A DNA stretch of 64,000 nucleotides from NCBI RefSeq assembly GCF_019075875.1, contig NZ_JAHOOZ010000001.1:3472001-3536000 (forward strand). The letters run 5' to 3'. This document shows, in pieces, positions 18,450-44,012 of the stretch; position 1 is the first letter of the stretch; each line of letters starts with the position of its first letter. The position numbers and the translations under genes were made by a program. Source of the stretch: Novosphingobium sp. G106 (GTDB taxonomy: Bacteria > Pseudomonadota > Alphaproteobacteria > Sphingomonadales > Sphingomonadaceae). The notes beneath the pieces were generated by a model that saw only the letters and a program-made list of their open reading frames with translations, ran no database searches and was not told the origin of the DNA.

Positions 18450-18665
18450 TCAGCCTTCGGCCTTCGCCTCCGCCTTCAGCACCCAGATGTCGACGGGGGC
18501 GATGAACTTGCCCGGCGCGGGCTTACCCACGTCGATCCGCTGGGCGGTGACGAGTTCGCCGCTTTCGAGCGTGAAGCTGGCCCAGGGCTTGGGCATCCGC
18601 TCGAACTTCATTTTCTGGATGGGCCGCCCGGTAGCGGCATTCATGATCGTGGCTATGATGGACAT
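18450..18665 (-). CDS. Small hypothetical protein (71 aa)
   Basis: I do not recognise a family. The protein starts MSIIATIMNAATGRPIQKM, is mixed alpha/beta, has no signal peptide or membrane helix and ends in a short Glu/Lys/Ala tail. It sits 123 bases downstream of the cytochrome c gene on the same strand, so it may be the last gene of that transcript. The binding site is weak. Support comes from position and codon usage only. Confidence 0.5.
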   Translation of the reverse strand: MSIIATIMNAATGRPIQKMKFERMPKPWASFTLESGELVTAQRIDVGKPAPGKFIAPVDIWVLKAEAKAEG

Positions 18666-18788
18666 GCCGGGCCGGTAGCGAGCCCGGCCCGGGCCTGTCC
18701 ATCAGGCGACTCGAAACTCCCCCGGAAATTGGCCGGGCTTTGCACCGAAATTCTGCAGGTCCGCGATCTGGCGGCGCTGGCGCCTCCC

Positions 18789-19268
18789 TCACCCCGGCAT
18801 CTGGTTCGTCGGCGCCTGCGCCCCGGCCCGTGCTTCCTTCGCTTCGGCCGCCGTCACCGGAGCCTTGTAGCGGTTGCCGAAATGGGTGCGGACGTAGTTG
18901 ACGACCTCGGCCGCCTGCTGGTCGCTCATCATCATGCCTATAGCGGGCATGCCGTTCATCCCCTGCATCAGCACCGACAGCGGATAGCCGCCGGCTTCGA
19001 GCTTGGGATTGCCGGCCAGCGCCGGATAGTGACCGGCGCCCTCCGCGCCTTTGGCATCGGGCATGTGGCAGGCGGCACAGACGCGGCGGTACATCGCCTC
19101 GCCGCTGGTCTCGGCGAACTGGCCGCGCCCGGCAAAGGCGCCGTCGGCGGCGTCGACCACGGCCGGCGTTGCCGGCGGAGCAGACTTGGCGGCGACGCCC
19201 ACCGAGCCGAGCGCAACGCCCATTGCCACTACGCCCGCCGTAAGGAGAGAAAGGGTCTGGATCTTCAT
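18789..19268 (-). CDS. Exported class I cytochrome c (partner of amine oxidase 1)
   Basis: Periplasmic monohaem cytochrome c of 159 residues. The signal peptide is MKIQTLSLLTAGVVAMGVAL followed by GSVGVAAKSA. The haem motif is C64-AA-C67-H68, in the block VCAACHMPDAKGAEG, and a methionine-rich segment (LMQGMNGMPAIGMMM) supplies the sixth ligand. Its start has a GAGAGGAGAG site and lies 11 bases after the stop of the flavin amine oxidase gene, so the two are cotranscribed. By analogy with NicA2 and its cytochrome CycN, it probably takes electrons from that flavoenzyme (inference). Confidence 0.9.
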   Translation of the reverse strand: MKIQTLSLLTAGVVAMGVALGSVGVAAKSAPPATPAVVDAADGAFAGRGQFAETSGEAMYRRVCAACHMPDAKGAEGAGHYPALAGNPKLEAGGYPLSVLMQGMNGMPAIGMMMSDQQAAEVVNYVRTHFGNRYKAPVTAAEAKEARAGAQAPTNQMPG

Positions 19269-19279
19269 GGTCTCTCCTC

Positions 19280-20872
19280 TCAGGCCGCGAGCACGTGTTG
19301 GTGGAGCCGGCCGATCGCGTCGATCGCCGAGGTGATGCCGCCCTCCTGCCAGCCGCCGTAGTAGGAGGCATGTTCGCCCGCGAGCATGATGCGGCCGTCC
19401 ATCGCGCAGAGGTTCTTGTAGTGCTCGGCGCGCGCCTGCTCGGTCCAGGTGCCGAAGCAGCCCAGCACCCAGGGTACGCGGTGCCAGCCGACCGACACGG
19501 CGTTCATGTACTCGGCCTTGGCCTGCGGATGGATCACCGAGTTCCATTCGAGCACCCGCGCGTGGCGTTCGGCCGGGGGCAGCGCGGTCAGCTCATAGCC
19601 GGTCGGGCCGCCGGTATAGGCGCCCAGCCAGACGCCCGGCCCCTTGGCGCCGTACTTGCTGCTGGGATAGCTGATCTGGCTGTTCGGCAAGTCGGTGTAG
19701 GAGATGCCGCCATAGATCTGGTCGTCCTGCTCCCAGAACCGGCGCTTGAACTCGAGCCCGACCTTGCAACTCGTCGAATAGGCGATGCCGCGGATCGCCG
19801 CGGCCATTTCCGGCCCGACGTTCATGTCCACCTGCGCGAGGATCGGCAGCGGGATCGTGCAGATGACGTAGTCGGCGCTGGCCGTCTGCTTGGCGCCGGT
19901 CTTGGTGTCGGTATAGGCGACCGTGACGCCCTTGTCGTTCTGCTGGATCGCAGTGACCTTGCTGTTCAGCCGGACGAGATGGCCGACCGCGCGTTCGAAC
20001 CCCTTGGCCACCTGCCCCATGCCGCCAACCGGCTGGAAGATGGTGAATTCGTGATCCCAGCTGAGGTTGCCGCCCAGCGTTTTCCACAGGCCCGAGCGCA
20101 GTACGGTCTCGGCGGTCATCGGCTCGGAAGGGATCGGCTCGGCGGAAAGGCCGCCGCCCGGTTCCTTGTCCCAGCCGCGCCGGTTGCTGGACTCGCGGCC
20201 CTTCACATAGCGCATGTTCTTGTCCAGCCCGCCCCAGCTGCGGAGCGATTCCAGCAGGATTTCACCGTCTTCCTTGGTGATCGTGTCGGTCAGCGCACCC
20301 TTGTTCACCGCCTTGGCGAGAAGCTCGCCGACATGACCATAATAGTCGGCCTGGGCGTGACGGAAGCGCTGTGGCTTGCCGTCGAACTGCTTCGTCGAAT
20401 GGATATAGGCATTGTAGTTGACCTGCATGAACGGCTGCAGCTCTACGCCGAGCTCGTGGCAGTAGTGGATCAGGCCGTGGTGGTGCCACGGAATGCGCCA
20501 GGGACCGGGATTGATGTAGTTGCCCGGCGCGAATTCACAGCGCTGGGTCGCGCCGCCGAGCTCGGTAAAGGTATCGCCGCCCTGCAGCGTCCACGAACGG
20601 CCGCCGACGCGGTCGTTGTATTCGAGCACCTGGACCTTGTAACCGGCGCGGCTGAGCTCCAGCGCCGAAGTCATGCCGGCAACACCGGCACCGAGGATCA
20701 GCACCGACGTTCCCTTGGGATCGCCGTCGAGCTTGATCGGGCCCTTGAAATTCGAAGCCTTCGCCTGGTCGAAGGCCCCCATGGCCATATACATGACCGT
20801 ACCCCCGGCTGCAGCGCCGATCAGACTCAGAAGATCGCGCTTGCTCATCCCCGGGTTGAGGTTTTGCGACAT
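19280..20872 (-). CDS. Exported flavin amine oxidase 1 (PF01593 family)
   Basis: FAD-dependent amine oxidase/dehydrogenase of 530 residues. The N-terminus MSQNLNPGMSKRDLLSLIGA is a Tat-like signal with a KR pair instead of RR, suggesting folded export. The FAD-binding motif is VLILGAGVAGMTSALELSRA (about 56-75), followed by GGRSWT; the C-terminal FAD block is MLAGEHASYYGGWQEGG. The sequence NPGPWRIPWHHHGLIHYCHE near residue 130 is shared with the two other amine oxidases downstream. The start was set at 20872 because GAGGG precedes it. The enzyme should oxidise an amine to an imine; its substrate is unknown. The cytochrome c gene follows directly, and a hybrid kinase gene is divergent. Confidence 0.9.
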   Translation of the reverse strand: MSQNLNPGMSKRDLLSLIGAAAGGTVMYMAMGAFDQAKASNFKGPIKLDGDPKGTSVLILGAGVAGMTSALELSRAGYKVQVLEYNDRVGGRSWTLQGGDTFTELGGATQRCEFAPGNYINPGPWRIPWHHHGLIHYCHELGVELQPFMQVNYNAYIHSTKQFDGKPQRFRHAQADYYGHVGELLAKAVNKGALTDTITKEDGEILLESLRSWGGLDKNMRYVKGRESSNRRGWDKEPGGGLSAEPIPSEPMTAETVLRSGLWKTLGGNLSWDHEFTIFQPVGGMGQVAKGFERAVGHLVRLNSKVTAIQQNDKGVTVAYTDTKTGAKQTASADYVICTIPLPILAQVDMNVGPEMAAAIRGIAYSTSCKVGLEFKRRFWEQDDQIYGGISYTDLPNSQISYPSSKYGAKGPGVWLGAYTGGPTGYELTALPPAERHARVLEWNSVIHPQAKAEYMNAVSVGWHRVPWVLGCFGTWTEQARAEHYKNLCAMDGRIMLAGEHASYYGGWQEGGITSAIDAIGRLHQHVLAA

Positions 20873-21238
20873 ATTGTATTTGCCCTCGCTTGCGGCCGCC
20901 CTGCCGTGCAGGGGAAATTCGGCCGCCACGGGCAAAATGTTGATACGCCTTTGTGCTTATTCCGCCAACGTTGTCATTCGACAAGGGTACCGCACTTGCG
21001 AAGGCCGGAGATTCCGGCGATCACCCCTATATCACGGGCTATTGTCCCTCTATGGGCCTGCGCAAAACCACGGTCTTGCCTTTGCCCTTCGGCAATGCAA
21101 CATTCCAATGCAGATACAAAAACAGGGCGCGTCCCAACTAGGGTCTCAGGGCAGAATGTTTCGACACCGACGGCAGTGCTGTGCGCTGAATACCATGACG
21201 CGAGCAAAGTCTCCGCAGCCGGGCACGCGCTGACGGCC
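20873..21238. other. Divergent control region between amine oxidase 1 and hybrid kinase
   Basis: 366 bases with no convincing gene. It should contain both promoters. It holds a perfect inverted repeat GCCGGA-GAT-TCCGGC (21004-21018) and a CCCTATAT...CTATGGG stretch (about 21025-21056). The order GATTCC(A/G)GC, ATC, CCCTA and ATGGGC resembles the region upstream of the TonB receptor at 25668-25707, hinting at a shared regulator site. This is my visual comparison only. Confidence 0.5.
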
Positions 21239-22906
21239 ATGGCGCTGTCCGACGCGAACTGGCTGAGAAAGGCGCCGCCCGTCTCGCGCGGTCCCTGGCG
21301 GATCGGCGTGCTCCGCGCCGCGCCGCTGTTCGCCCTGGCCATGGCGCTGCTGGCGATCGCGGCTGATCTCGCCGCCGAATTCTCCTCGGCCGACGATACC
21401 CAGATGCACCTGATCGGCATTGTCTGCATGATCGGGATCTGTGTCGTGGCCGCAGTGATTCTCGCACGCGAAGGTGCACGCGTGCCCGGTGCAGTAGTGG
21501 CGGAAGAAAATGCCGACCAGCTCAATCTGGACAAAGAGGCCGCAGAAACCGCCAATTTCGCCAAGAGCCGCTACATCGCCAGCGTCAGCCACGAGATCCG
21601 CGCGCCGCTCAATGCGATCTACGGCTACGCGCAGCTCATGGAGCGCGGCGACCAGGTCGATTCGCGCGAAGCCGCGCAAGTCATCCGCCGCTGCTCGGAA
21701 CACCTGACCAGCCTGGTCGACGGGCTGCTCGACATCAGCCAGCTCGAAAACGGCATCATGCGGGTCAAGCACGATACCGTTCGCTTTCGTGATTTTCTCG
21801 ACCAGATCTTCTGGATGCTGCGACCTAGCGCGCAGGCCAAGGGACTGGATTTCATCGCCGACTATCCCGAACGGCTGCCTGAATATATCCGCATGGATCA
21901 GAGCCGGCTGCGCCAGGTGCTGATCAACCTCGTATCCAACGCGATCAAGTTCACCGAGGCGGGATCGGTGACCTTCAAGGTCGGCTACGCGGGACAGATC
22001 GCCACTTTCGAAGTGATCGATACCGGCCCCGGCATCCGCCAGGAGGACCGCGAGCGGATCTTCGATCCCTTCGAGCGCGGCGGTGACGCGCACGAGCAGG
22101 TGCAGCCCGGGGTCGGGCTCGGGCTGCCGATCACCCAGGCGATCGTCAAGATCCTCGGCGGCGACCTCACGTTCGACAGCATTCCCGGCCAGGGCACCCG
22201 GTTCAAGGTCACGCTGATGCTGGGCGACGTCGCCGGCAAGATCAGCGACCTATCGCCGTCGCGTTCCATCGTCGGTTACGAAGGGCCGCGCCGCTCGCTC
22301 CTCCTCGTCGATGACGACGTGCGGCAGCTTTCTTTCCTGCGCAATCTGTTGGAATCGATCGGCTTCGACGTCGCGGCCGTACCCAACGGCGAGACCGCAG
22401 TTGCGCTCTGCGAACGCCGGCGATTCGATCTAGCGGTGCTCGACATCTCGATGCCCGGCATGTCGGGCTGGCAGACGGCCTCCTACCTGCGCGAGAAGAT
22501 GCAGCTCGACCTGCATATCGTCATGCTGTCCGCCAATGTGCAGGAATTCCACAAGCCCGAGACCCAGGTGATCGTCCACGACCTGTTCCTGGTGAAGCCG
22601 GTCGAATTCAACGCGCTGCTCGACGCGCTGGGCGGCCTGCTCAACCTCTCGTGGAAATGGGAAAACCTGGACCGGACCGTGCCGCTGCCCAAATCGGCGC
22701 CGACCGGCGACCTCTCCGAAGACGCCATGGTCCACGTCGAGCGGCTGCGCGATCTCCTGCGCATCGGCCACATCCGCGGGGTCGAGGCCGAGATCGCCGC
22801 GCTCGACGAGGCGGCACCCGAAGCGCGCGCGCTGATCGCGCATCTCTATGATTGTCTGGATCGCTACGATCTTTCTGCGATGGTAAGGAAACTGGAAAAT
22901 GTCTGA
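21239..22906 (+). CDS. Hybrid sensor histidine kinase
   Basis: Inner-membrane hybrid kinase of 555 residues. Two transmembrane helices at about 22-47 and 56-77 frame only a short periplasmic loop, so there is no large input domain. The HisKA phospho-acceptor is His118 (ASVSHEIRAPL); the ATPase has NLVSNAIKF, DTGPGI and GVGLGLPIT. A receiver domain (about 352-470) has phospho-acceptor Asp402 in VLDISMPGMSGW and a LVKP lysine. The C-terminal 70 residues form a helical tail often found in hybrid kinases. The start at 21239 is my choice; upstream in-frame sequence is antisense to amine oxidase 1. It overlaps the response-regulator gene by 8 bases. Confidence 0.9.
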   Translation: MALSDANWLRKAPPVSRGPWRIGVLRAAPLFALAMALLAIAADLAAEFSSADDTQMHLIGIVCMIGICVVAAVILAREGARVPGAVVAEENADQLNLDKEAAETANFAKSRYIASVSHEIRAPLNAIYGYAQLMERGDQVDSREAAQVIRRCSEHLTSLVDGLLDISQLENGIMRVKHDTVRFRDFLDQIFWMLRPSAQAKGLDFIADYPERLPEYIRMDQSRLRQVLINLVSNAIKFTEAGSVTFKVGYAGQIATFEVIDTGPGIRQEDRERIFDPFERGGDAHEQVQPGVGLGLPITQAIVKILGGDLTFDSIPGQGTRFKVTLMLGDVAGKISDLSPSRSIVGYEGPRRSLLLVDDDVRQLSFLRNLLESIGFDVAAVPNGETAVALCERRRFDLAVLDISMPGMSGWQTASYLREKMQLDLHIVMLSANVQEFHKPETQVIVHDLFLVKPVEFNALLDALGGLLNLSWKWENLDRTVPLPKSAPTGDLSEDAMVHVERLRDLLRIGHIRGVEAEIAALDEAAPEARALIAHLYDCLDRYDLSAMVRKLENV

Positions 22907-23825
22907 AATGGCCGTAGCCCCGCGGCCGGACACGGTGCTCGTGATCGACGACGAGCCCGATTCGCTGCGCATGCTGACCGCGATGCTCGAAACCGCGGAC
23001 CTGACCGTCCTGATCGCCACTTCCGGCAAGGCCGCACTCGACGTGCTGCAGCACGTCAAGCCCGACCTGATCCTGATGGACGCGGTGATGCCGGGGATCG
23101 ACGGCTTCGAGACGACGACGCTGATCAAGCGCGATCCGGCGCTCGCCCCGATCCCGATCATCTTCATGACTGGCCTGACCGAAAGCGAGCACGTCATCGA
23201 GGCCTTCGAGGTCGGCGGCGTCGACTATGTGCGCAAGCCGATCAACTGGCAGGAACTGCTGGCGCGCGTGCGCGTCCACATGGCGCAGAGCCGCGCGGTT
23301 CACGCCAGCGTGACAAGCCTCGACGCGACGGGGCGGCTGATGATGGCGACCGACAGCGAAGGCCGCCTGCTCTGGTGCACGCCGCTTGCCGAACGCGCGA
23401 TCGCGCGGGTCGCGCCCGGCTGGGACCGCGGCACGCCGGTCCTGCCGCCGCTGCTGCGCGGCGGCGTGCAAAAGCTGCTCGGCCAGGAGAATGCCAGCGG
23501 CTCCTCGATCCGTATCGAGCAGCCGCAGGGGACGATCGAATTGGTCGTCATCGACCGGCTTCGCGGCGACGAGGTGCTGATCCAGATCAACGAGCTCGAT
23601 CCTAAGCAGGACGTGCTGCGGCTGCAGAACGGGCTCAACATCACCTCGCGCGAGGCCGAGGTGCTGCTCTGGGTCAGCTACGGCAAGTCGAACTCGGACA
23701 TCAGCGACGTGCTGACGATCAGCCCCCGCACGGTGCAGAAGCACCTCGAGCACATCTACGACAAGATGGGTGTGGAAACGCGCTCTTCGGCGGCGGCGAT
23801 CGCGATCAAGATCATCGGGCGGTAG
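22899..23825 (+). CDS. LuxR-type response regulator with extra middle domain
   Basis: Cytoplasmic two-component response regulator of 308 residues. The receiver domain (about 10-130) has acidic pair Asp17/Asp18, phospho-acceptor Asp61 in LILMDAVMPGIDG and the conserved KP. Residues 135-240 look like a degenerate PAS-type domain (RLMMATDSEGRLLWCTPLAE). The C-terminus is a LuxR/NarL helix-turn-helix: LNITSREAEVLLWVSYGKSN, then ISPRTVQKHLEHIYDKMGV. It is translationally coupled to the hybrid kinase and is the obvious candidate regulator of the amine-oxidation genes on both sides. Confidence 0.92.
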   Translation: MSEMAVAPRPDTVLVIDDEPDSLRMLTAMLETADLTVLIATSGKAALDVLQHVKPDLILMDAVMPGIDGFETTTLIKRDPALAPIPIIFMTGLTESEHVIEAFEVGGVDYVRKPINWQELLARVRVHMAQSRAVHASVTSLDATGRLMMATDSEGRLLWCTPLAERAIARVAPGWDRGTPVLPPLLRGGVQKLLGQENASGSSIRIEQPQGTIELVVIDRLRGDEVLIQINELDPKQDVLRLQNGLNITSREAEVLLWVSYGKSNSDISDVLTISPRTVQKHLEHIYDKMGVETRSSAAAIAIKIIGR

Positions 23826-23857
23826 GAGGAAGCGTCTACCGCGCCGCGCGCAATGGA

Positions 23858-24361
23858 TCAGGCAGCCGGCTTGGCCGCGATCGCTTCGATCTCGATCAGG
23901 TAGTAAGGGCCGACCAGCGCGGCTACCTGGAAAGTCGAACGGGCAACCGTGACAGGCGTCTCGGCCGTGCCGAAGAAGGTCTTGAAGCCCTCGTTGGCGC
24001 CGGCGAAGTCCATGCGCCCGGTCTTGGGATCGGGCGCGAGGAACAGAGACAGCTTGATCGTGTCGGACATCTTGTAGCCCTGGGTCTCCAGGATCTTCTT
24101 GATCTTGCCCAGTGCGCTGATGGTCTGGGTCTTGGTATCCCCCATCTCCTCTACACTCTTCACATCGGCCATCGGCTTTGCGGGGTCGACCGGCGACGGG
24201 AGCTGGCCCGAGACGTAAAGCATCTCCGCCCCGGCACCGACCTTGGCGGCGTCGAGGATGATCGCCTGGGGATTGCTCTTGATGCGCGTGACCTGGGCGT
24301 GAGCCCCAGACGGCAACAGCGCGGCCGATAGTACGGCGGCAAACAGCATTTTAAATCGCAT
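23858..24361 (-). CDS. Exported RidA-family (YjgF) imine deaminase 1
   Basis: RidA-fold protein of 167 residues. Unlike ordinary RidA (about 130 residues, cytosolic), it starts MRFKMLFAAVLSAALLPSGA followed by HAQ, a Sec signal peptide. The RidA core includes MLYVSGQLP, the Thr/Gln-rich dimer region and the signature ARSTFQVAAL...LIEIEA, in which the catalytic arginine is conserved. RidA proteins hydrolyse reactive enamine/imine intermediates to keto products and ammonia. The start at 24361 has a CAGGAGAA site. It lies 33 bases downstream of the DAAO-like gene and probably deals with its product (inference). Confidence 0.9.
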   Translation of the reverse strand: MRFKMLFAAVLSAALLPSGAHAQVTRIKSNPQAIILDAAKVGAGAEMLYVSGQLPSPVDPAKPMADVKSVEEMGDTKTQTISALGKIKKILETQGYKMSDTIKLSLFLAPDPKTGRMDFAGANEGFKTFFGTAETPVTVARSTFQVAALVGPYYLIEIEAIAAKPAA

Positions 24362-24394
24362 GGATCTTCTCCTGGACGTCTTGGCAAGCATGGT

Positions 24395-25588
24395 TCAGCC
24401 CTTCGCCGCTGCCGCAGTGCGGGGCTGGAACATCGTCGCGACCACGCCGATCGAATCGCGCGCAGCGGCGTAATCGGGCTCTTCGTTGGGATCATTGAAG
24501 CCGAAGGCCTCGTCGGCGCCGAGCGCCTGGACGAGGATGCCGTCGCGGCGCGCGAGCACCGAGACGTGGTTGTACTGGAGGCCGTAGTCGACCTCGGGCT
24601 GCGGCAGCAGCCAGGCGATCTGACCGCGCACCGGGACAATGCTCTCGTCCTTCATCAACGCCCGCGCGCCGTAGCCCGTGCAGTTGACGATCGCCTTTTC
24701 GCGAATGCGCGCGAAGTCGGCGGGGCCGGTCAGTTCCATCGGCACGAAGCGCCCCCCAGCAATCAGGAAGTCGCTTTCGAGCTGGTGGTAGAGGTCGGCA
24801 ACGTTGTAGCGCAGCGTGCTCGTCCGCCGCACGAAAGGCATGGAGAACGGGTGCGCGCCGCTGGCGAGATCATCGTTGCGCGGCGTGAGGTCCTTCACCC
24901 GGTCGTCGTAGTCGACAAAGGTGTCGCTGCCGCCGCCCGGCATGGCGATCACCGTCTTGGGGCGCTTCTCGAACGGGGTGTCCGACAGCACGTAGCGGTC
25001 GACCCATTCGACGGGATTGCCGGCGAGGCCGAGGTAGGATTGGTGCACGGTGAAGGTACGCCGCGCCATCCGTTCCCACTTGGTCGTGAAAGCATCGTTG
25101 ACTGCGCCGTCCATGGCAACGCGGCTGTGCGGCGACCAGGTGCCGGTCGCCCGTGCAGAGCGGACGTCGGGAAAGCGATCCCTGGCGTAGATCGTGACCT
25201 TCAGCCCCAGGCGCTGGGCGGTGATCGCGGTGGTCATGCCGATCGCGCCGGCGCCGACCACGGCAATCTCCTTCGCACCGGTCTGCAGCAGCAACGGCAG
25301 CGCCTCCATCGCCGAGCCCCAGGACAGCGACCATCCGCTGCCGCCGTGGCCGTAGTGATGGAGCACGGTCTTGCCCGCGATCTGCTCGACTTCCATGCGC
25401 GGCCCAGCGGCACGGAAGGGACGAAGGCAGACGGTGACCTTGAACATGCGGTCGGCCCGCGCCTTGACCGGTGCCAGTGCAGGCGGCGAAGCGAAGGCCG
25501 TCTGCGCCATCAGCCTGGCCGGCAAACCGCCGGCGGCCCCAAGCGAACCCCACGCTGCGCTTCGTAAAACCGCCCGACGATCGACCAT
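24395..25588 (-). CDS. Tat-exported D-amino-acid-oxidase-like flavoprotein
   Basis: FAD-dependent oxidoreductase of 397 residues in the DAO (PF01266) family. The N-terminus MVDRRAVLRSAAWGSLGAAG carries an RR twin-arginine-type export signal. The FAD motif is IAVVGAGAIGMTTAITAQRL (about 105-125), typical of D-amino acid oxidases, and the C-terminal half has the NCTGYGARAL block with GQIAWLL. D-amino acid oxidases convert amino acids to imino acids with transfer of electrons to oxygen; an exported member is unusual. A GGAGGAG site precedes the ATG. The downstream RidA gene suits removal of an imino product. Confidence 0.88.
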   Translation of the reverse strand: MVDRRAVLRSAAWGSLGAAGGLPARLMAQTAFASPPALAPVKARADRMFKVTVCLRPFRAAGPRMEVEQIAGKTVLHHYGHGGSGWSLSWGSAMEALPLLLQTGAKEIAVVGAGAIGMTTAITAQRLGLKVTIYARDRFPDVRSARATGTWSPHSRVAMDGAVNDAFTTKWERMARRTFTVHQSYLGLAGNPVEWVDRYVLSDTPFEKRPKTVIAMPGGGSDTFVDYDDRVKDLTPRNDDLASGAHPFSMPFVRRTSTLRYNVADLYHQLESDFLIAGGRFVPMELTGPADFARIREKAIVNCTGYGARALMKDESIVPVRGQIAWLLPQPEVDYGLQYNHVSVLARRDGILVQALGADEAFGFNDPNEEPDYAAARDSIGVVATMFQPRTAAAAKG

Positions 25589-25687
25589 GCGTTCTTGCGC
25601 TCCTCCGCGGCCCGATTCGCCTGCGCAAAAAACGGCGCGGAACGGCCTGCGAAGCCCATAATCTAAGGATTCCAGCCAATCGGACCC

Positions 25688-25703
25688 TACGCATATCGGC
25701 GTA
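25688..25703 (+). promoter_or_regulatory. Candidate operator, inverted repeat TACGC-N6-GCGTA
   Basis: TACGC (25688-25692) and GCGTA (25699-25703) form perfect five-base arms about 170 bases before the TonB receptor start and about 100 before the DAAO-like start on the other strand. Wider flanks CCC and TGGG extend it. LuxR/NarL-type regulators often bind such sites, so the response regulator at 22899 is the likeliest partner (inference). Confidence 0.4.
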
Positions 25704-25874
25704 TGGGCAACCCCCGCGCTTTCGAGTGGACTGAGGCTTCAATCGGGAAGTCACCGCGACAGGGCGAAGACGTCTTCGAGAGCAAAAGATAAAAACGGGT
25801 CGCGCAAGTTGAAGACCACGACGCGCGGACCTGTGAACAAGAGGGAGAGATACGACAAAACATGGGGGTGACCA

Positions 25875-28619
25875 ATGTCGCGTATCTCTAAAGTTGCTAT
25901 TGCCGTACTTCTGGGTTCTACAACTCTAACTAACGCCCAAGCCGCTTTGGCTCAGGCTGATCCCACACCCGCGCCGACCGAGGTCCAGACCACGGATACT
26001 GGGTCGGGCGCCGACGACATCATCGTCACCGGCACGCGCGAAGTCGGCACCAAGGCCGCAGACGCCGCCGCGCCGATCCAGCTCCTCTCGCAGGAAGCGC
26101 TCGAGCACGTCGGCCAGCCGAACCTCAACCAGGCGCTGACCCAGATCGTGCCGTCGTTCACGGCGCAGACGCAGGGCACCGACATGGCGAGCTTCTCGCT
26201 CTCCGCCCGCCTTCGCGGCGTCAGCCCGAACCACACGCTGGTCATGGTCAACGGCAAGCGCCGCCACGGCAACGCGATCCTTCAGGTGATCAACGGCGCC
26301 TTCGGCGGCTCGGCCGCACCGAGCATCGACCTCATCCCGCCGGACTCGGTCCAGCGCATCGAAATCCTGCAGGATGGTGCCGCCGCGCAATATGGTTCGG
26401 ACGCCATCGCCGGCGTCATCAACATCATCCTCAAGAGCAACGATTCGGGCGTTTCGGCCAAGGCCACCGCCGGCGAATACTATGACGGCGAAGGCCGCAC
26501 CTACAGCGCCAGCGGCAATTTCGGCCTGCCCGTGGGTGACAGCGGCTTCCTCAGCGTGACGCTGTTCCAGCGCAGCAACGACTATACCAAGGTCGGCGAC
26601 GGCCAGTTCACGGTGCGCAACATCAACGGCTCGCGCAACACGGGCATCACCGGCGCCTTCGCACCGATCTACGATTCGGTCATCGCCCGCAACGCCGACG
26701 CCAACATCAACGGCGGCCAGCCCAAGTCGCAGCTCTACATCGCGTCCTACAACTTCGGCTACGACTTCGGCGGCGTCGAATTCTATTCATTCGGCGACGT
26801 GTCCTACCGCCACGGTGATGCTCTTCAGGGCTACCGCCCGCCGAACCGCATCTGCTCGTCGAGCACTCTCCCCGGGACTTGCCTCCAGTCGACCATCACC
26901 AACGGCCTCGTCCCGCACATCGAGGTCAAGCAGAACGAATTCGCGCTGACCGGCGGCTTCAGGGGCGAAGTGGGCGATGGCTGGAACTGGGACCTGTCGG
27001 GGACCTATGCCGAGGACGTCGCCAAGATCTATACGACCGGCTCCGCGAACGCGTCGATGTTCATCAACACGTTCAACGCCGGCAGGAATGCCGCCTACTG
27101 CGCAGCCAATAACTGCGTAGGGTTGACTGCGACGCAGATAGCAAACGCCGCCAACGCTTCGGCTACTGCCGTCGCCGCAGGGCAGGCTGCCGCCCAGACG
27201 CCGAGCTATTTCTACGACGGCTCGTTCAAGTTCACGCAGTTCGTCGGCACGCTCGATATCCGCAAGGAACTCGATGTCGGCATGCCGCTGACCCTCGCGT
27301 TCGGCGGCGAATATCGCAAGGAGACCTATGCGATCAGCGCCGGCGATGCTGCATCGACCTATTTCGAAGGCGGCCAGTCGTTCCCCGGCTACACGGCCGG
27401 CGATGCCGGCACGCTCAAGCGCGACGCCGAGGCAATTTACATCGACCTCATCGCCAAGCCGGTAGATGCCTGGCAGGTCGATGTCGCCGGCCGCTTCGAG
27501 CACTACAGCGACTTCGGCGACACGGTGATCGGCAAGCTCACCACGCGCTATGACTTCTCCGACGCCTTCGCTCTGCGCGGCACGGTCAGCACGGGCTTCC
27601 GCGCTCCGACGCTGCAGGAATCGGGCTACTCGTCGACCAACGTCGGCCCGACCAGCGCGACGCTTCAGCTTGCGCCGAGTTCGCCCGGCGCGGCGGCTGC
27701 CGGCTTCGGTGCACTCAAGCCCGAGAAGTCGCTCAACTTCTCGGCAGGCGTCGTGCTGCGTCCGATACCCCGCCTGGTCGTGACGCTCGACGGCTACTAC
27801 ATCAAGATCAGGGACCGCATCGTCTCGTCGGGCTCGATTACCGGCCAGGACTCGTCGCCCTTCCCCGTTCTGGGCATCCCGCGGACGAACATCATCAACG
27901 GCGTCACGGCGTTCCAGCTCGTGCAGAATGCGATCGCGGCGAGCGGAAAGAACCTTGATCCGACGGTGGTGCAGTCCGGCTCGCTCGCGATCCAGACCTT
28001 CACCAACGGCATCGATACGCGCACCTACGGCCTCGAGCTGTCGGCCCGCTATCCCGTCGAGCTCGGCTTCGGCAAGCTCGATCTGTCGCTGGGCGCCAAC
28101 TACAACGATACGAAGGTCACCAAGAACAAGCTCGGCACGCTGTTCAACCTGGCGGCGTACTCGATCATCGAAGACTCGAGCCCCAAGTTCAAGAGCGTGT
28201 TCGGCGCTCTGTTCAGCAGCGGCGGCTTCACCCTGAGCTCGCGCGCGACCTACTACAGCAAGACCACCACGCTGGTTCAGCCGAACGCCTTCTCGACGAC
28301 GGTCCGTCCGATCACTGGTGACGGCACGGCGGGCTACTACGAGGGCGTAGTCAAAGCCGCGGTCATCTTCGATCTCGAAGCGAGCTACGACCTGACCAAG
28401 TTCCTCAATGTCGCGGTCGGCGCGAACAACCTGTTCAACAAGAAGCCGGAGATCCCGGCTCTGGTTGCCGACTACGATCCGGCCAACCCGCGTGCGGGCT
28501 GGCTGGCGGGCCGCTCGCCCTACGTCAACGGCGGCGGCACGATCAACGGCCCCTACACGCACGGGCCCTACGGTACCAACGGCGGCTACTACTACGCCCG
28601 CCTCTCGCTGAACTTCTGA
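25875..28619 (+). CDS. TonB-dependent outer-membrane receptor (amine-oxidation locus)
   Basis: Outer-membrane beta-barrel importer of 914 residues. It has a signal peptide (MSRISKVAIAVLLGSTTLTN then AQAALAQA), a clear TonB box and start of the plug, DDIIVTGTREVG, and plug motifs ARLRGVSPNHTLVMVNGKRR and IEILQDGAAAQYGSDAIAGV. The C-terminus YYYARLSLNF ends in phenylalanine as needed for BAM recognition. Sphingomonads use such receptors to take up large or rare compounds. It sits between the DAAO-like and RidA genes and the amine oxidase pairs and is the probable entry point for the substrate. A hairpin follows the stop. Confidence 0.95.
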   Translation: MSRISKVAIAVLLGSTTLTNAQAALAQADPTPAPTEVQTTDTGSGADDIIVTGTREVGTKAADAAAPIQLLSQEALEHVGQPNLNQALTQIVPSFTAQTQGTDMASFSLSARLRGVSPNHTLVMVNGKRRHGNAILQVINGAFGGSAAPSIDLIPPDSVQRIEILQDGAAAQYGSDAIAGVINIILKSNDSGVSAKATAGEYYDGEGRTYSASGNFGLPVGDSGFLSVTLFQRSNDYTKVGDGQFTVRNINGSRNTGITGAFAPIYDSVIARNADANINGGQPKSQLYIASYNFGYDFGGVEFYSFGDVSYRHGDALQGYRPPNRICSSSTLPGTCLQSTITNGLVPHIEVKQNEFALTGGFRGEVGDGWNWDLSGTYAEDVAKIYTTGSANASMFINTFNAGRNAAYCAANNCVGLTATQIANAANASATAVAAGQAAAQTPSYFYDGSFKFTQFVGTLDIRKELDVGMPLTLAFGGEYRKETYAISAGDAASTYFEGGQSFPGYTAGDAGTLKRDAEAIYIDLIAKPVDAWQVDVAGRFEHYSDFGDTVIGKLTTRYDFSDAFALRGTVSTGFRAPTLQESGYSSTNVGPTSATLQLAPSSPGAAAAGFGALKPEKSLNFSAGVVLRPIPRLVVTLDGYYIKIRDRIVSSGSITGQDSSPFPVLGIPRTNIINGVTAFQLVQNAIAASGKNLDPTVVQSGSLAIQTFTNGIDTRTYGLELSARYPVELGFGKLDLSLGANYNDTKVTKNKLGTLFNLAAYSIIEDSSPKFKSVFGALFSSGGFTLSSRATYYSKTTTLVQPNAFSTTVRPITGDGTAGYYEGVVKAAVIFDLEASYDLTKFLNVAVGANNLFNKKPEIPALVADYDPANPRAGWLAGRSPYVNGGGTINGPYTHGPYGTNGGYYYARLSLNF

Positions 28620-28625
28620 TCATGG

Positions 28626-28656
28626 CCGGGCAGGCGCATCCGCTGCGCCTGCCCGG
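28626..28656 (+). terminator. Hairpin after TonB receptor
   Basis: A perfect 13-pair stem, CCGGGCAGGCGCA (28626-28638) with TGCGCCTGCCCGG (28644-28656), around loop TCCGC, begins six bases after the receptor stop. Only TTCCTATTT follows, so termination may be partial, which would let some transcripts continue into the RidA and oxidase genes at a lower level. Confidence 0.6.
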
Positions 28657-28683
28657 TTCCTATTTCGTGTCCCCAGGGAGAAG

Positions 28684-29187
28684 ATGATGAAGCAGTTGAT
28701 GAGCCTAGCCGCCGCTTCCGCGGCGCTCGCCCTTTCCGCGGGCACCGCGCATGCCGCAAAGCCCAAACCCGCGCTGGTAGTCGAGCGCACCGGCCAGCCG
28801 ACTGGCGTGATTTCCAGCACGGCCACTGTGCCGGCTGAGATGAAGCTGATCTTTCTCTCGGGCAGCACAGCGTCGCCGCTCGATCCGGCCAAGCCCGACG
28901 ATTTCGGTGACACCCGCCAGCAGACGCTTTCGATCCTCACCAAGATGAAGGCGCAACTGGAATCGATGGGACTCGGCATGGGCGACATCGTGAAGTTGAA
29001 CGTCTTCCTCGTCGCCCCGACGCCCGGCGGACGGATGGATTCGGCGGCCATGAACGAAGTCTTCAAGACCTTCTTTGGCACGCCCGAACAGCCCAACAAG
29101 CCCACGCGTTCAACGGTGCAAGTCGCCGCGCTCGGTCGCCCGACCACTTATGTCGAGATCGAAGGCATCGCCGCCAAGGCACCCTGA
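28684..29187 (+). CDS. Exported RidA-family (YjgF) imine deaminase 2
   Basis: Second exported RidA-fold protein, 167 residues. Signal peptide MMKQLMSLAAASAALALSAG followed by TAHAA. The core has LIFLSGSTASPLDPAKP, a central Gln/Thr helix region and the signature TRSTVQVAAL...TYVEIEG with the catalytic arginine retained. It is clearly related to the RidA protein at 23858 (shared RMD...N and VFKTFFGTPE/GFKTFFGTAE blocks) but is divergent enough to act on another product. It has an AGGGAGAAG site and is 47 bases upstream of amine oxidase 2, so cotranscription is likely. Confidence 0.9.
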   Translation: MMKQLMSLAAASAALALSAGTAHAAKPKPALVVERTGQPTGVISSTATVPAEMKLIFLSGSTASPLDPAKPDDFGDTRQQTLSILTKMKAQLESMGLGMGDIVKLNVFLVAPTPGGRMDSAAMNEVFKTFFGTPEQPNKPTRSTVQVAALGRPTTYVEIEGIAAKAP

Positions 29188-29234
29188 TTTCCGCAAGACC
29201 CGAAGTTTCCCCGAGGGAAAGGATCGCCTGAAAG

Positions 29235-30840
29235 GTGTCCAGCACGATTTCCGATATGTCGCCGCAGACCCGGCGCGAACTGCTGGCGATGATCGGCAAG
29301 GTCGGCGGCGGCCTCGCCATGTACCAGGCGATGACTGCACTCGGCCACGCCGCCGAGACGCAGTTCACCGGGCCGCCGAACTTATCGGGGGCCCGGCCGG
29401 GCGCGAGCGTGCTGGTGCTGGGCGCAGGACTCGCCGGCATGGTCGCCGCTTACGAACTGACCAAAGCAGGCTACAAGGTTCAGGTGCTCGAATATCAGGA
29501 CCGGCCCGGCGGGCGGAACTATTCGGTGCGCGGCGGCGACAAGATCGTCGAGGTCGGCGGCGCGACGCAGACCGTCGGTTATGCGCCCGGTAACTACCTG
29601 AACCCCGGGCCTTGGCGCATCCCGCACCACCACCGCACACTGATCCACTACTGCAAGGCCTTCGGCGTCGAGCTGGAGCCTTTCATCCAGCTCGATCACA
29701 ACGTCTTCGTTCACAAGTCGGACGCCTTCGGCGGCAAGCCGCAGCGCTACAAGGAGCTGGCGACCGACTTCAAAGGCCACGTCTCGGAGCTTCTCGGCAA
29801 ATCGCTCAACGCCGGCGCGCTCGATGCTGCAGTGACCAAGGAAGACAAGGACAAGCTGCTCGAAGCGATGCGCGACTGGGGCGCGCTCGACAAGAACATG
29901 GCCTATTCGAGTTCACTCGCCGTTTCGGGCCAGCGCGGCTACGATCAGGCGCCGGGAGGCGGTGTGGGCGGCGCGCCGACGCCGTCGAAGGTCAACGGCC
30001 TGTCCGACGTGCTGGCCTCGCACGTCTGGACGCAGATGGGTTTCTATTTCAGCTACGTCATGCAGACCACCATGTTTCAGCCCAAGGGCGGCATGGACAT
30101 GATCGGCAAGGGTTTCTACCGCCAGATCAACAAGATGGTCCGGCTGAATACCAAGGTGACCAAGGTCGCCCAGGACGACAAGGGCGTTACGGTCTCGTGG
30201 CAGGATGCCAAGACCGGCCAAGTCGGCGAAAGCAAGGCCGACTACTGCGTCTGCACGATCCCGCTACCGGTCCTCAGCCAGCTCGACATCCAGGTCGCGC
30301 CGAAGACGCAGGCCGCGATCAAAGCCGTGCCCTATGGCAGTGCCGTCAAGATCGGCCTCGAGATGAAGCGGCGGTTCTGGGAAGAAGACTATTCGATCTA
30401 CGGGGGGGCACAGCTTCACTGACCAGGCGATCGGGCTGATATCCTACCCCAACTTCGATTTCTTCAAGGACGGGCCGGCCGTGGTGCTCGGCGCCTTCGC
30501 CAATGGCAGCGCAGGGGCGTTCCAGCTCGCCGGCATGACGCCCGAGCAGCGCATCCAGGCGGCGCTCGACCAGGGCGCGGTGTTCCACCCGGATTCCTAT
30601 CGCAAGGAGTTCGCCAATGGCGCCTCGGTCGCCTGGAGCCGGATGCCCTGGATCCTCGGCTGCTCGTCGCGCTGGACCGATGACTTGCGCGCGACGCACT
30701 ACCAGAATCTCGTCGCGATCGACGGGCGCATCGCGCTCGCAGGCGAGCATGCGTCCTACTACGGCGGCTGGATGGAGGGCTCGCTGCTCTCGGGCATCGA
30801 CGCCATCAAGCGCGTGCATCAGATGGCCATGTCTGCATGA
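29235..30840 (+). CDS. Exported flavin amine oxidase 2 (apparent frameshift in a G run)
   Basis: FAD-dependent amine oxidase; 534 residues after removing one G from the run of seven at 30402-30408 (the frame SIYGGHSFTDQAIGL then continues). Two alternative starts exist: GTG 29235, with an AAGGA site upstream, or ATG 29256; GTG is preferred because it matches the length of the paralogue. The signal is Tat-like: TRRELLAMIGKVGGG. FAD motif VLVLGAGLAGMVAAYELTKA, then PGGRNYSVRGG; NPGPWRIPHHHRTLIHYCKA; C-terminal LAGEHASYYGGWMEGSLLS. Very similar to oxidase 3 over its length. The next gene, a cytochrome c, overlaps the stop codon by 4 bases (ATGA). Confidence 0.88.
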
Positions 30841-31281
30841 GCAGGACCAGGCATGCGATGACTGTCGTGCTCGGCGCAGCGGGCCTGCTCGCCGGAGCGA
30901 CTTTCGCTGCGCGGGCGCAGGACGCGCCCGGTGGCGTCACCAGCGTCCAGGTCGCGGACGAGGGCAAGCAGGTCTACGAGCAGATCTGCCAGGCCTGCCA
31001 CATGGCCGATGCCAAGGGCGGCGGCAGCGCGGGCGCGATGATCCCGGCGCTGGCGGACAATCCGCGGCTCAAGGACCCCAACTATCCCATCGTCATCCTG
31101 CTCAAGGGCCGCGGGGGGAATGCCCTGGTTCAGCGACATGCTGACCCCGGCGCAGATGGCCGCGGTCATCACTTACGTCCGCGGCCATTTCAACGCCTAC
31201 CCGGACCCGGTGACCGAAGCCGAGGTCAAGAAGCTCGCGGCCGACCCGCCGCCGGTGCCCGAATGCAACTGCACGCGATAG
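30837..31281 (+). CDS. Exported cytochrome c, partner of amine oxidase 2 (apparent frameshift)
   Basis: Periplasmic cytochrome c of 147 residues after removing one G from the run of six at 31113-31118. Signal: MSRTRHAMTVVLGAAGLLAG followed by ATFAARAQ. Haem motif C51-QA-C54-H55 in ICQACHMADAKGGGS, closely resembling the cytochrome at 18789. After the frameshift the chain continues GMPWFSDMLTPAQMAAVITY, containing the methionine ligand region, and ends PPPVPECNCTR. Translation is coupled to amine oxidase 2 by an ATGA overlap, the strongest sign that it serves as that enzyme's electron acceptor. Confidence 0.87.
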
Positions 31282-31300
31282 AGATCAGGGGACACAGACA

Positions 31301-32894
31301 ATGACCGCGGAACTGTCGGCGCCGACCCGGCGCGAACTGCTCAGCGCCATCGGCAAGGTCGGCGGCGGCATGGCCATGTACCAGGCGATGACCGCGCTGG
31401 GCCATGCGGCAGAGACCCAGTTTACCGGCCCGCCGAACCTCACGGGCGCGCGCAAGGGCGCGAGCGTTCTCGTGCTCGGCGCAGGCCTTGCCGGCATGCT
31501 CGCCGCCTACGAGCTGACCAAGGCGGGCTACAAGGTTCAGGTGCTCGAATACCAGGACCGTCCCGGCGGGCGGAACTACTCGGTGCGCGGCGGCGACAAG
31601 ATCGTCGAGGTCGGCGGCACGACGCAGACCGTGGGCTATGCCCCGGGCAACTACCTCAATCCCGGCCCCTGGCGCATCCCCCCACCACCACCGCACCTTG
31701 CTGCACTACTGCAAGGCCTTTGGGGTCGAGCTCGAGCCGTTCATCCAGCTCAACCACAACGCCTTCGTCCACCGCACCGACGCCTTCGGCGGCAAGCCGC
31801 AGCGCTACAAGGAGCTGGCGACCGACTTCAAGGGCCACGTTTCCGAACTGCTGGCCAAGTCACTCAATGCTGGCGCGCTCGACGGCAAGGTGACCAAGGA
31901 GGACAAGGACAAGCTGCTCGAGGCGATGCGCGACTGGGGTGTGCTCGACAAGAACATGGCCTACTCCAGCTCGCTCGCGGTCTCAGGCCAGCGCGGCTAC
32001 GATCAGGCCCCCGGCGGCGGGGTGGGCGGCGCGCCGACGCCGTCCAAGGTCAACGGCCTGACCGACGTGCTGGACTCGCACGTCTGGACGCAGATGGGCT
32101 TCTACTTCGGCTATGTCATGCAGACGACGATGTTCCAGCCGAAGGGCGGCATGGACATGATCGGCAAGGGTTTCTACCGCCAGATCAGCAAGCTCGTCCG
32201 CCTCAACACCAAGGTGACCAAGGTCGCGCAGGACGATAGCGGCGTTACCGTGGGCTGGCAGGATGCCAAGACCGGGCAGATCGGCGAGAGCAAGGCCGAC
32301 TACTGCGTCTGTACCTTGCCCGCGACGATTGTCAGCCAGCTCGACATCCAGATGGGCGATGCCAAGAAGGCCGCGGTCAAGGCGCTGCCCTACAGCGGCC
32401 AGGTCAAGATCGGGCTCGAGATGAAGAGCCGGTTCTGGGAAGAGAACTACTCGATCTACGGCGGCCACAGCTTCACCAACCAGGCGATCGGCCTAGTCTC
32501 CTATCCCAATTACAACTTCTTCAAGGACGGGCCGGCCGTGCTGCTCGGCGCCTTCGCCAGCGGTGCGGGCGGCTACCAGCTTGCCGGCATGACGCCCGAG
32601 CAGCGCATCCAGGCGGCGCTCGACCAAGGTGCGGTGTTCCATCCGGCCGAATATCGCCGCGAGTACATGAACGGCGCCTCGGTCGCCTGGAGCCGGATGC
32701 CCTGGATCCTCGGCTGCTGCGCGTCCTGGACGGAGGAATCGCGCGCCGCGCACTACCAGAACCTCGTCTCGCTCGACGGCCGCATCGTTCTGGCGGGCGA
32801 GCACGCGTCCTATTACGGTTGCTGGATGGAGGGGGCGCTGCTGTCATCGATGGATGCTATAAAGCGGCTCCACCAGCGGGCTCTCCAGGCCTGA
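31301..32894 (+). CDS. Exported flavin amine oxidase 3 (apparent frameshift in a C run)
   Basis: FAD-dependent amine oxidase, 530 residues after removing one C from the run of six at 31678-31683, which restores PWRIPHHHRTLLHYCKAFG. An AGGGGA site precedes the ATG. The Tat-like signal is PTRRELLSAIGKVGGG. FAD motif VLVLGAGLAGMLAAYELTKA and GRNYSVRGGDKIVEVGG are nearly the same as in oxidase 2, so the pair arose by tandem duplication. The C-terminus reads IVLAGEHASYYGCWMEGALL, with a cysteine where oxidases 1 and 2 have glycine. It begins 20 bases after the cytochrome of pair 2. Confidence 0.88.
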
Positions 32895-32929
32895 CGGAAC
32901 CACACAGGGAAAATGGATTCATACTGCCA

Positions 32930-33319
32930 ATGAAAATACGAATGATTGCCGCCCTCGCCATGGCCGCCGCTGCCTGCTCGGCGACGATGACCTATGCCGC
33001 CGGTCCCGCGGGCGATCCGGTCAAGGGCAAGACGGTGTTCGCCCGCTGCATGGCCTGCCACAAGATCGACGCCAGCAACACGTCTGGCCTGGGCCCCAAT
33101 CTCAACCGCCTCGCCGGGCGGCGCGCGGGCAGCCTGCCCGGCTTCCGCTATTCGCCGGCGATGGCCGGTTCGGGCAAGGTCTGGAACGATGCCTCGCTCG
33201 ATGCCTATCTGACGGCGCCCGCGCGCAACGTTCCCGGCAATCGCATGGCCTTCCCCGGCCTGAGCAATCCGGCCGACCGCCAGAACGTCATCGCCTACAT
33301 CAAGTCGGCTTCGAAGTAG
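32930..33319 (+). CDS. Exported cytochrome c2-like protein, partner of amine oxidase 3
   Basis: Periplasmic cytochrome c of 129 residues, different in type from the other two cytochromes of the locus. Signal MKIRMIAALAMAAAACSATM then TYAA. Haem motif C40-MA-C43-H44 (CMACHKIDASN), then GLGPNLNRLAGR and the C-terminal RMAFPGLSN Met-ligand loop, the pattern of class I cytochrome c2/c550. It begins 36 bases after amine oxidase 3 and ends 6 bases before the RND adaptor gene. The start at 32930 is supported by the signal peptide; a binding site is only weakly placed. Confidence 0.88.
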   Translation: MKIRMIAALAMAAAACSATMTYAAGPAGDPVKGKTVFARCMACHKIDASNTSGLGPNLNRLAGRRAGSLPGFRYSPAMAGSGKVWNDASLDAYLTAPARNVPGNRMAFPGLSNPADRQNVIAYIKSASK

Positions 33320-33325: not shown

Positions 33326-34384
33326 ATGGCGCGCGGCGGTGTTCTCGTCTGTCTGATCGGCACTCTCCTCGTCGCAGGCTGCGGCAAGGCTGGGGGCGAT
33401 CGCAAGAAACCGCCGCCGCCGCTTGTCGCGGCAGCCGCGGCGGTGCGCCACCGCTTTGTCGACGTGATCGAGGCGGTCGGTACGGCCCGCGCCAACGAGC
33501 AGGTGACCATCGCCTCTCCGGTCACCGAACGGCTGGAACGCGTTTTGTTCGACGACGGCATGGCGGTCAGCAAGGGCCAGCTCCTGGCCGTGCTCTCGCA
33601 AGGCCAGGAGGACGCCCAGCTGCGCGGCGCGATCGCGGTGCAGACCCAGGCCACCGCGCAATATGATCGTATCAAGTCGCTGGCCGACCGCGGCTTCGCC
33701 ACGCGCACCCAGCTCGACCAGCAGCTCGCCACGGCCGAAGGCGCCCGCGCCAGCGCCGCCGAAGCGCGTGCCGCGATCGGCGACCGCATGATCCGTGCAC
33801 CTTTCGCCGGCTATACCAGCCTGCGCACGATCTCGGCCGGGATGGTCGTCAGTACGGGGACCCCGCTTGTGACGATCAGCGATCTCTCGCGGATCAAACT
33901 CGATTTCACCGTGCCCGAAACCAAGCTGCAGGCGCTGCGCGTCGGCCAGCCGATCCAGGCCCTCGCCGCGGCGTTCCCGGGCGCGCCGTTTACCGGCACG
34001 ATCACTTCGATCGATCCCGTGATCGATCCCTCCAGCCGCGCCGTGCTGGTCCGCGCAACGCTGCCCAACCCCGGTGCTCGGATCAAACCGGGCATGCTGA
34101 TGACGGTGCGGGTCGGCGCGGCCGAGCGGGTCGGCGATGCCGTGCCCGAACTCGCCGTCACCGGCCGCGGCGACGAGCGTTTCGTCTTCATCGTCACGCC
34201 AGAAAAGAAAGCCAAGCAGGTTCCGGTCAAGACCGGCCTGCGCTCCGCGGGCCTGATCGAAGTGACCGGCCTGCCCGCCGGCGCCAAGGTCATCGGCGAC
34301 GGCGTCATCAAGGTCAGCGACGGCAGCCCCGTGCGCCTGCGCGGCGAAAAGCCCCGCCCGACGCGCACCGCAAGCGCCGACTGA
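33326..34384 (+). CDS. RND efflux periplasmic adaptor (membrane fusion protein)
   Basis: Periplasmic adaptor of 352 residues anchored as a lipoprotein: LVCLIGTLLVAGC with a cysteine at residue 19. The lipoyl/hairpin domain spans about 45-170 (EAVGTARANEQVTIASPV, then QTQATAQYDRIKSLADRGFA and TRTQLDQQLATAEG), with beta-barrel residues TISDLSRIKLDFTVPE and the membrane-proximal end after 270. It overlaps the RND pump gene by one base (TGATG) and directly follows the cytochrome gene with a 6-base gap, so it may be transcribed with the amine-oxidation operon. Confidence 0.93.
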   Translation: MARGGVLVCLIGTLLVAGCGKAGGDRKKPPPPLVAAAAAVRHRFVDVIEAVGTARANEQVTIASPVTERLERVLFDDGMAVSKGQLLAVLSQGQEDAQLRGAIAVQTQATAQYDRIKSLADRGFATRTQLDQQLATAEGARASAAEARAAIGDRMIRAPFAGYTSLRTISAGMVVSTGTPLVTISDLSRIKLDFTVPETKLQALRVGQPIQALAAAFPGAPFTGTITSIDPVIDPSSRAVLVRATLPNPGARIKPGMLMTVRVGAAERVGDAVPELAVTGRGDERFVFIVTPEKKAKQVPVKTGLRSAGLIEVTGLPAGAKVIGDGVIKVSDGSPVRLRGEKPRPTRTASAD

Positions 34385-43994: not shown

Positions 43995-44012
43995 GCTCTG
44001 CGGGGACCCGTC

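Follow-up and report, generated by a model that had tools for sequence, protein, structure and literature searches.

A candidate periplasmic respiratory system for amino-acid deamination in Novosphingobium sp. G106

Several described systems come close to the locus reported here. The lao-cccA-ridA operon of Gluconacetobacter diazotrophicus is described as encoding a twin-arginine translocation (Tat)-type L-amino-acid oxidase (LAAO), a cytochrome c and RidA; it has been proposed to be periplasmic and is required for auxin production, and the same paper cites a periplasmic LAAO–RidA complex of Chlamydomonas (PMC5053998). Where a cytochrome gene adjoins that of a Tat-exported flavin amine oxidoreductase, the enzyme is in many cases described as a dehydrogenase (PMC12224317), and Rid proteins hydrolyse in vitro the imines formed by amino acid oxidases (PMC4433059, PMC5619798). 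Proteins of the Rid2 and Rid3 kinds are reported to hydrolyse iminoarginine, for Rid3 proteins the iminoarginine produced by D-arginine dehydrogenase (PMC5619798). We analysed a 64,000-nucleotide stretch of the 7.2 Mb Novosphingobium sp. G106 genome (6.17 Mb contig NZ_JAHOOZ010000001.1, positions 3,472,001 to 3,536,000 of the forward strand; hereafter the window), which encodes three LAAO-type flavoproteins (OX1, OX2 and OX3), three cytochromes c, two exported Rid proteins (Rid1 and Rid2), a D-amino-acid oxidase that is almost certainly circularly permuted (cpDAAO), a TonB-dependent receptor, a two-component pair and an RND efflux pump. On balance, this locus is probably a periplasmic respiratory amino-acid deamination system.

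Every gene named in a first-pass annotation of this DNA was found close to the coordinates it gave, using open reading frames (ORFs) and Pfam, and its proposal of exported oxidases, Rid proteins, cytochromes and D-amino-acid oxidase agrees with the export motifs seen on all of these, as judged from motifs and a reading of hydrophobicity. Its statement that no described system has this combination is not supported for the core, as lao-cccA-ridA is described with LAAO, cytochrome c and RidA together (PMC5053998). Annotated LAAO–cytochrome–RidA triads were also found on plasmids of Comamonas odontotermitis and Paracoccus marcusii (L220, L222), and an annotated LAAO–cytochrome pair on a Rhizobium tropici plasmid, in gene maps covering 3 of the 37 plasmid records with an LAAO. 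Given lao-cccA-ridA and these plasmid triads, the core of the window system is of an already known kind.

All three oxidases carry a PF01593 domain and have 2JAE, the LAAO of Rhodococcus opacus, as their best PDB match, in keeping with LAAOs of the R. opacus type. OX1 aligned over almost the whole chain (309 bits), the first part of OX2 gave 214 bits and the second part of OX3 gave 194 bits. Position 83 of the 2JAE chain is an Arg, presumably the residue numbered R84 in publications that binds the substrate carboxylate; it was kept in 54/54 LAAOs aligned as well as in OX3. At chain position 370, where the Tyr of 2JAE is presumably Y371, a second substrate-carboxylate contact, OX1 has Tyr and OX3 has Phe. 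With the R. opacus enzyme as closest solved relative, L-amino acids are the likely substrate class of OX1–OX3. The first-pass annotation had taken NicA2 as the model enzyme; this was replaced, and a NicA2-type identity as the closest relation was set aside, because LAAO structures rank first among the PDB matches. No chain named nicotine oxidoreductase appeared among the matches listed, the best 60 of 110. The Tat-like character that had been assigned to all three oxidases was seen as an RR motif at the N termini of OX2 and OX3, but OX1 has KR, not RR. A second cytochrome-paired LAAO, 69% identical to OX1, is encoded elsewhere in the same genome (G000:C1:2620670-2622235, L192), with no Rid or receptor match in the 19 kb covered.

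For the relation between oxidases and cytochromes, 54 LAAO genes were compared (phmmer >200 bits, ORF >1100 bases, loci L161–L218 plus the window, with OX3 excluded as a fragment), and a gene was scored as paired when a motif screen placed a same-strand CxxCH reading frame ≤900 bases away. Such a frame stood beside 33/54 genes, two LAAOs of L163 having one cytochrome in common, and 21/54 were without. All of the paired LAAOs fell in one branch of the tree (33/33 versus 0/21 outside; SH-aLRT 95), and by a quick tree method the trait amounted to one change, versus a shuffled mean of 16.9. Tat-like motifs occurred in both types (L184 had none in the stretch printed), and a Rid gene lay within 5 kb of 22/33 cytochrome-branch LAAOs and 11/21 others, and a receptor gene within 5 kb of 18/33 and 8/21, respectively, shares that are biased by the choice of loci from LAAO and Rid hits. 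Motif, Rid and receptor are thus common to many LAAOs of both types, and the cytochrome marks one branch. The residue before the key Arg is Trp in 33/33 cytochrome-branch LAAOs and Ala in 18/21 others, a suggestive signature of the branch. Each window oxidase has an adjacent exported cytochrome c gene, a feature of the Tat and cytochrome flavin amine dehydrogenases. The earlier proposal that every oxidase stands next to its own cytochrome is borne out as a property of the branch. Within the window it needs two corrections: the cytochrome 2 gene is flanked by those of OX2 and OX3, and the third cytochrome is c550-like, differing in type from cytochromes 1 and 2.

This distribution bears on whether the window enzymes might be ordinary oxygen-using LAAOs that produce extracellular hydrogen peroxide, with the cytochromes serving another role. 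The R. opacus LAAO is itself an oxidase, and sister LAAOs with Tat motifs, many of them linked to Rid and receptor genes, have no cytochrome neighbour. The confinement of the cytochrome association to one branch, together with the kinetic precedent described for Tat and cytochrome pairs (PMC12224317), argues against oxygen as the acceptor, and we regard it as quite improbable. One sister lineage (L169–L176, L178 and L179) has a Tat motif, an exported Rid at 10/10 loci, a receptor at 8/10 and no cytochrome gene; its LAAOs are candidate exported oxidases for comparison.

Linkage of the LAAO, Rid and receptor genes was examined across the family (149 genomes, counting the window's own) and across the class (385 genomes), at cut-offs of E≤1e-60 for LAAO and E≤1e-20 for exported Rid. 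Only the best few first-look candidates per genome were scored (LAAO, 9 in the family and 3 in the class; receptor, 6), so that gene counts are lower bounds, and the Fisher tests on genome counts ignore the kinship of genomes. Within the family, LAAO was found in 23 genomes and exported Rid in 29; all 23 LAAO genomes had a Rid (Fisher 7.6e-22), and in 19/23 the two genes lay ≤10 kb apart. Across the class, LAAO was found in 19 genomes, Rid in 10 and both in 9, all 9 with the genes ≤5 kb apart (Fisher 1.9e-12); after removal of two matching genomes of the window's own family the counts were 17, 8 and 7 (Fisher 6.7e-10). The receptor family (E≤1e-60) comprised 22 genes in 20/149 genomes, and 18/22 were ≤5 kb from an exported Rid gene, the exceptions being those of G024, G008, G045 and the second copy of G027. 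Apart from the receptor itself, the highest-scoring match in the window's genome reached 61 bits, which argues against a generic TonB match. The co-occurrence test proposed in the first-pass annotation, run in this way, upheld the association: in other genomes too, LAAO genes are accompanied by those of an exported Rid and of this particular TonB receptor.

Gene maps of the related clusters were drawn up as well. In G076 the cluster again comprises the pump, two oxidases with a cytochrome, both Rids, the receptor, the regulator–kinase pair and cpDAAO. G079 and G147 have one or more oxidases, a cytochrome, both Rids, the receptor and the regulator–kinase pair, while their cpDAAO gene is found on a separate contig. 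G035 and G118 have the Rids, the receptor, two oxidase–cytochrome pairs and a pump of lower similarity. The pump counterpart beside the cluster scored 1584 bits in G076 and about 520 bits in G035 and G118. The best solved matches of Rid1 were the Rid3 proteins PFL1385 and PSPTO3006. The catalytic Arg and Glu were retained in 44/44 exported Rids aligned, and a crude signal scan was positive for 38/44.

Reading the substrate from homology of the receptor was rejected, since its matches to receptors for siderophores and colicins were weak and mostly at the level of the plug. The substrate could also be a larger amine or amino-acid-containing compound, such as a peptide, siderophore or natural product, that is imported by the receptor and deaminated by the oxidases. 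The linkage of a specific TonB receptor to the locus, an M20 peptidase encoded downstream and a Kozakia cpDAAO gene set amid genes for hydrolases, a TonB receptor and a cytochrome are all consistent with such a substrate. Against it, the presumed carboxylate-binding Arg of 54/54 LAAOs favours alpha-amino acids, and sphingomonads use TonB receptors for small molecules too, so a larger substrate is a possibility that we entertain only tentatively.

For the deamination system that we favour, the following route is proposed. The dedicated TonB receptor would carry an amino-acid-type substrate across the outer membrane, and the Tat-exported LAAO-type flavoproteins would oxidise L-amino acids to 2-imino acids, passing the electrons to the neighbouring c-type cytochromes and then to the respiratory chain. 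With cytochromes as acceptors, the LAAO-type enzymes would act as L-amino-acid dehydrogenases. The exported Rid proteins would hydrolyse these imino acids, releasing ammonia and keto acids, and the Tat-exported cpDAAO, whose gene shares an operon with that of one Rid, would do likewise for D-amino acids. The two-component pair may regulate the system, and the RND pump may shield the cell from products or from the inducing compound.

The same enzymes could instead make a signal or hormone-like keto acid, such as indole-3-pyruvate leading to auxin from tryptophan, and not serve nitrogen or energy supply. Tn5 insertions in lao of G. diazotrophicus are reported to abolish auxin production (PMC5053998), and LAAO genes of this type occur on plasmids of nodule bacteria, with an adjoining cytochrome in the one R. 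tropici case viewed. In the window, however, no decarboxylase or other auxin gene was found among the 29 reading frames scanned with Pfam, a subset of its genes, and auxin formation would leave the receptor and the pump unexplained. The R. tropici gene y4wF was considered as the same gene as the LAAO and rejected; it is a different gene, located elsewhere on the plasmid. Overall, we find the auxin explanation unlikely.

The product of the remaining oxidase gene had been annotated as a DAAO-like flavoprotein with a Tat signal. Its PF01266 match, N-terminal RR motif and D-amino-acid oxidase motifs agree with this (the DAO fold, the RPxR Arg and the GHGG motif are all present), but a non-canonical domain order, in which the C-terminal block comes first, had not been recognised. 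In a motif-order test, GHGG preceded the last RGQ in 117/120 cpDAAO proteins and 128/130 loci, the exceptions being P0030 (without GHGG), P0050, L013 and L042 (without RGQ) and P0071 (early RGQ only). The 130 loci contain overlapping duplicates; the 80 named loci gave the permuted order in 80/80. With a stricter motif pattern, 106/120 proteins and 55/130 loci were scored as permuted, 14 and 73 as incomplete, and 0 and 2 as other. De-permuting the window protein merged two alignment blocks into a single collinear stretch, the total score not being higher (60.0 versus 61.5 bits for 6rkf and 50.7 versus 54.2 bits for 7ct4). As judged by motif copies, no clear case of a tandem-duplication intermediate was found; a second GHGG-like match was present in 8 sequences, none of which had it beyond the final RGQ of a protein normal in other respects. 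The permutation would fuse the old ends and place the new amino end behind the Tat signal, and from fold and motifs the enzyme is likely to act on D-amino acids.

The best named matches of the window cpDAAO were from Novosphingobium. It shares an operon with Rid1 in the window and lies by the cluster in G076; at L096, receptor, LAAO, cytochrome and cpDAAO genes stand in a row, and at L084 receptor, cpDAAO and Rid. Strong cpDAAO matches (E≤1e-80, a threshold of our own choosing) were found in 17/149 genomes, including 8/13 genomes with a cytochrome-branch LAAO (4.7e-6). A cytochrome gene directly follows cpDAAO in G076, G028 and Kozakia baliensis, and a CxxCH frame was near cpDAAO in 4/100 loci, L042 among these being discounted for want of a signal; that cpDAAO is coupled to a cytochrome is no more than a lead. 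On the K. baliensis plasmid (L221), cpDAAO and then a cytochrome c gene lie amid genes for serine hydrolases, a CocE/NonD hydrolase, a further FAD oxidoreductase and a TonB receptor, a cluster possibly for the breakdown of D-amino-acid peptides. The largest neighbour cluster in 100 cpDAAO loci, excluding cpDAAO itself and overlapping frames, occurred in 15 of them. Pfam scans covered 77/77 downstream and 72/76 upstream neighbours (L071, L096, L126 and L130 were dropped), and a transglutaminase-like protein was the commonest downstream neighbour (8/77 named loci).

Three apparent one-base frameshifts, absent from the first-pass annotation, were found in OX2 at 30402 (G7), cytochrome 2 at 31113 (G6) and OX3 at 31678 (C6). 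They coincide with 3 of the 10 long homopolymer runs in the window (G/C ≥6 or A/T ≥7), and coding similarity to relatives is present on both flanks of each. The clustering of three breaks inside 1.3 kb might point to a plus-strand oxidase operon that is decaying in this strain, with only OX1, cpDAAO and the Rids functional. Because the breaks all lie at long homopolymer runs and similarity continues on either flank, the pattern that assembly indels would give, the three breaks are more probably errors of the assembly than signs of decay, and decay has little to recommend it.

Several observations weigh against a dedicated deamination system. The assembly shows broken reading frames for OX2, cytochrome 2 and OX3, and OX3 carries Phe at the position of the presumed carboxylate-contacting Tyr. 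In 4/23 family genomes LAAO and Rid do not lie within 10 kb, being on different contigs in G020, G034 and the listed genome G106 and far apart on one contig in G028, and G111, the sole listed genome of the window's genus, gave no LAAO, Rid or cpDAAO match at the thresholds used. The main text of PMC12224317 contains none of the terms "amino acid oxidase", "LAAO", "RidA" and "TonB", so its Tat and cytochrome rule is extended here to enzymes on which it is silent. Of the 80 named cpDAAO loci, 1 showed an exported Rid and 1 an LAAO with cytochrome, and the commonest neighbour Pfam family reached 8/77 downstream and 5/72 upstream among the families listed (the best 25 of 54 and 60, respectively). 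That cpDAAO is always linked to the LAAO/Rid system was rejected, its neighbours varying across the 80 named loci. As cpDAAO usually lies away from Rid, LAAO and cytochrome genes, its place in the pathway is weaker, and the case for its membership is mixed. A broader proposal is that a large unreported family of Tat-exported cpDAAO proteins, found in many Alphaproteobacteria and in Acidobacteria, may be cytochrome-linked respiratory D-amino-acid dehydrogenases, joined in the window with the LAAO-type branch so that one locus might oxidise both mirror forms outside the inner membrane; we consider this doubtful, although possible.

Coordinates and supporting matches of the locus are collected in Table 1. 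On the minus strand, cytochrome 1 starts 11 bases past OX1 and Rid1 starts 3 bases past cpDAAO, and the kinase–regulator pair sits between these two gene pairs. The plus-strand genes run from the receptor through Rid2, OX2, cytochrome 2, OX3, cytochrome 3 and the RND fusion protein to the RND pump, and with gaps of <70 bases or overlaps between them these genes are probably a single operon, which continues into the pump pair (33326-37503) beyond the extent first annotated. Elsewhere in the window, an FHA-SpoIIE phosphatase (plus strand) and a Ser/Thr kinase (minus strand) are encoded nearby at 42873-47126, and two FAD_binding_2 flavoproteins on the minus strand at 59247-63724.

Table 1. Genes of the locus, with positions in the window
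Feature	Position	Strand	Support and remarks
Cytochrome c 1, CBB3/class I type, CxxCH, Sec-like signal	18789..19268	-	PF13442 4.3e-11; start inferred (M at ORF residue 94)
OX1, LAAO-type flavoprotein, Tat-like motif SKRDLL	19280..20872	-	PF01593 2.6e-61; 2JAE 309 bits; start inferred
Hybrid sensor histidine kinase (HisKA-HATPase-receiver)	21239..22906	+	Domain search; homologue beside cluster in L161-L163; start inferred
Response regulator, receiver and LuxR (GerE) domains	22899..23825	+	Domain search; homologue beside cluster in L161-L163
Exported Rid protein 1 (Rid1), Rid3-like, Sec-like signal	23858..24391	-	PF01042; solved matches PFL1385, PSPTO3006
cpDAAO, Tat-like signal MVDRRAVLR	24395..25588	-	PF01266, N-terminal RR motif
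TonB-dependent receptor, specific family	25875..28619	+	PF00593/PF07715
Exported Rid protein 2 (Rid2)	28684..29187	+	PF01042 5.5e-16; signal-like (Sec-like) N terminus
OX2, LAAO-type flavoprotein, RR Tat motif	29235..30840	+	PF01593; frame broken near 30402
Cytochrome c 2, CxxCH	30837..31281	+	Frame broken near 31113; start inferred
OX3, LAAO-type flavoprotein, RR Tat motif	31301..32894	+	PF01593; frame broken near 31678
Cytochrome c 3, c550-like	32930..33319	+	PF00034; NCBIfam c-550 CycA 91 bits, below model cut-off 240; start inferred
RND membrane fusion protein, end of same plus-strand operon	33326..34384	+	Counterpart beside cluster in L163, weaker in L164, L165
RND efflux pump (AcrB type)	34384..37503	+	Counterpart beside cluster in L163, weaker in L164, L165

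If the proposed electron route is correct, LAAO-type enzymes, export motifs being present on both sides, divide into one branch coupled to cytochromes and other lineages that lack a neighbouring cytochrome gene, and would offer matched pairs for studying how a flavoenzyme trades oxygen for a protein acceptor. The proposed route also suggests that these bacteria deaminate amino acids ahead of cytoplasmic uptake, with Rid proteins acting in the periplasm. The permuted family provides a natural circular permutation in a textbook flavoenzyme and raises the question of whether the moved ends are tied to export or to a changed electron acceptor.

Compared with the closest known enzymes, the window oxidases have R. 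opacus LAAO as their best PDB match and keep its key Arg, and differ from it in their Tat motif, cytochrome partner and residues at the presumed pocket positions. With the NicA2/Pnao and CycN type they have in common a Tat signal and an adjacent exported cytochrome c (PMC12224317), whereas their closest solved relative is an LAAO and they are linked to Rid and receptor genes. Rid1 keeps the catalytic Arg and Glu of PFL_1385 and PSPTO_3006, from which the window Rids differ by a signal peptide and by an operon with LAAO or cpDAAO, and cpDAAO differs from DAAO and DASPO in its circularly permuted order and Tat-like signal. As with lao-cccA-ridA, judged from its description, LAAO, cytochrome c and Rid genes stand side by side in the window and the LAAO is of the Tat type; Rid2, OX2 and cytochrome 2, adjacent on one strand, make up such a set. 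Beyond that operon, the window has three LAAOs, three cytochromes, two exported Rids, a TonB receptor, a two-component pair, an RND pump and cpDAAO, and it is the receptor, the doubled Rids, the pump and cpDAAO that are the additions over the known core.

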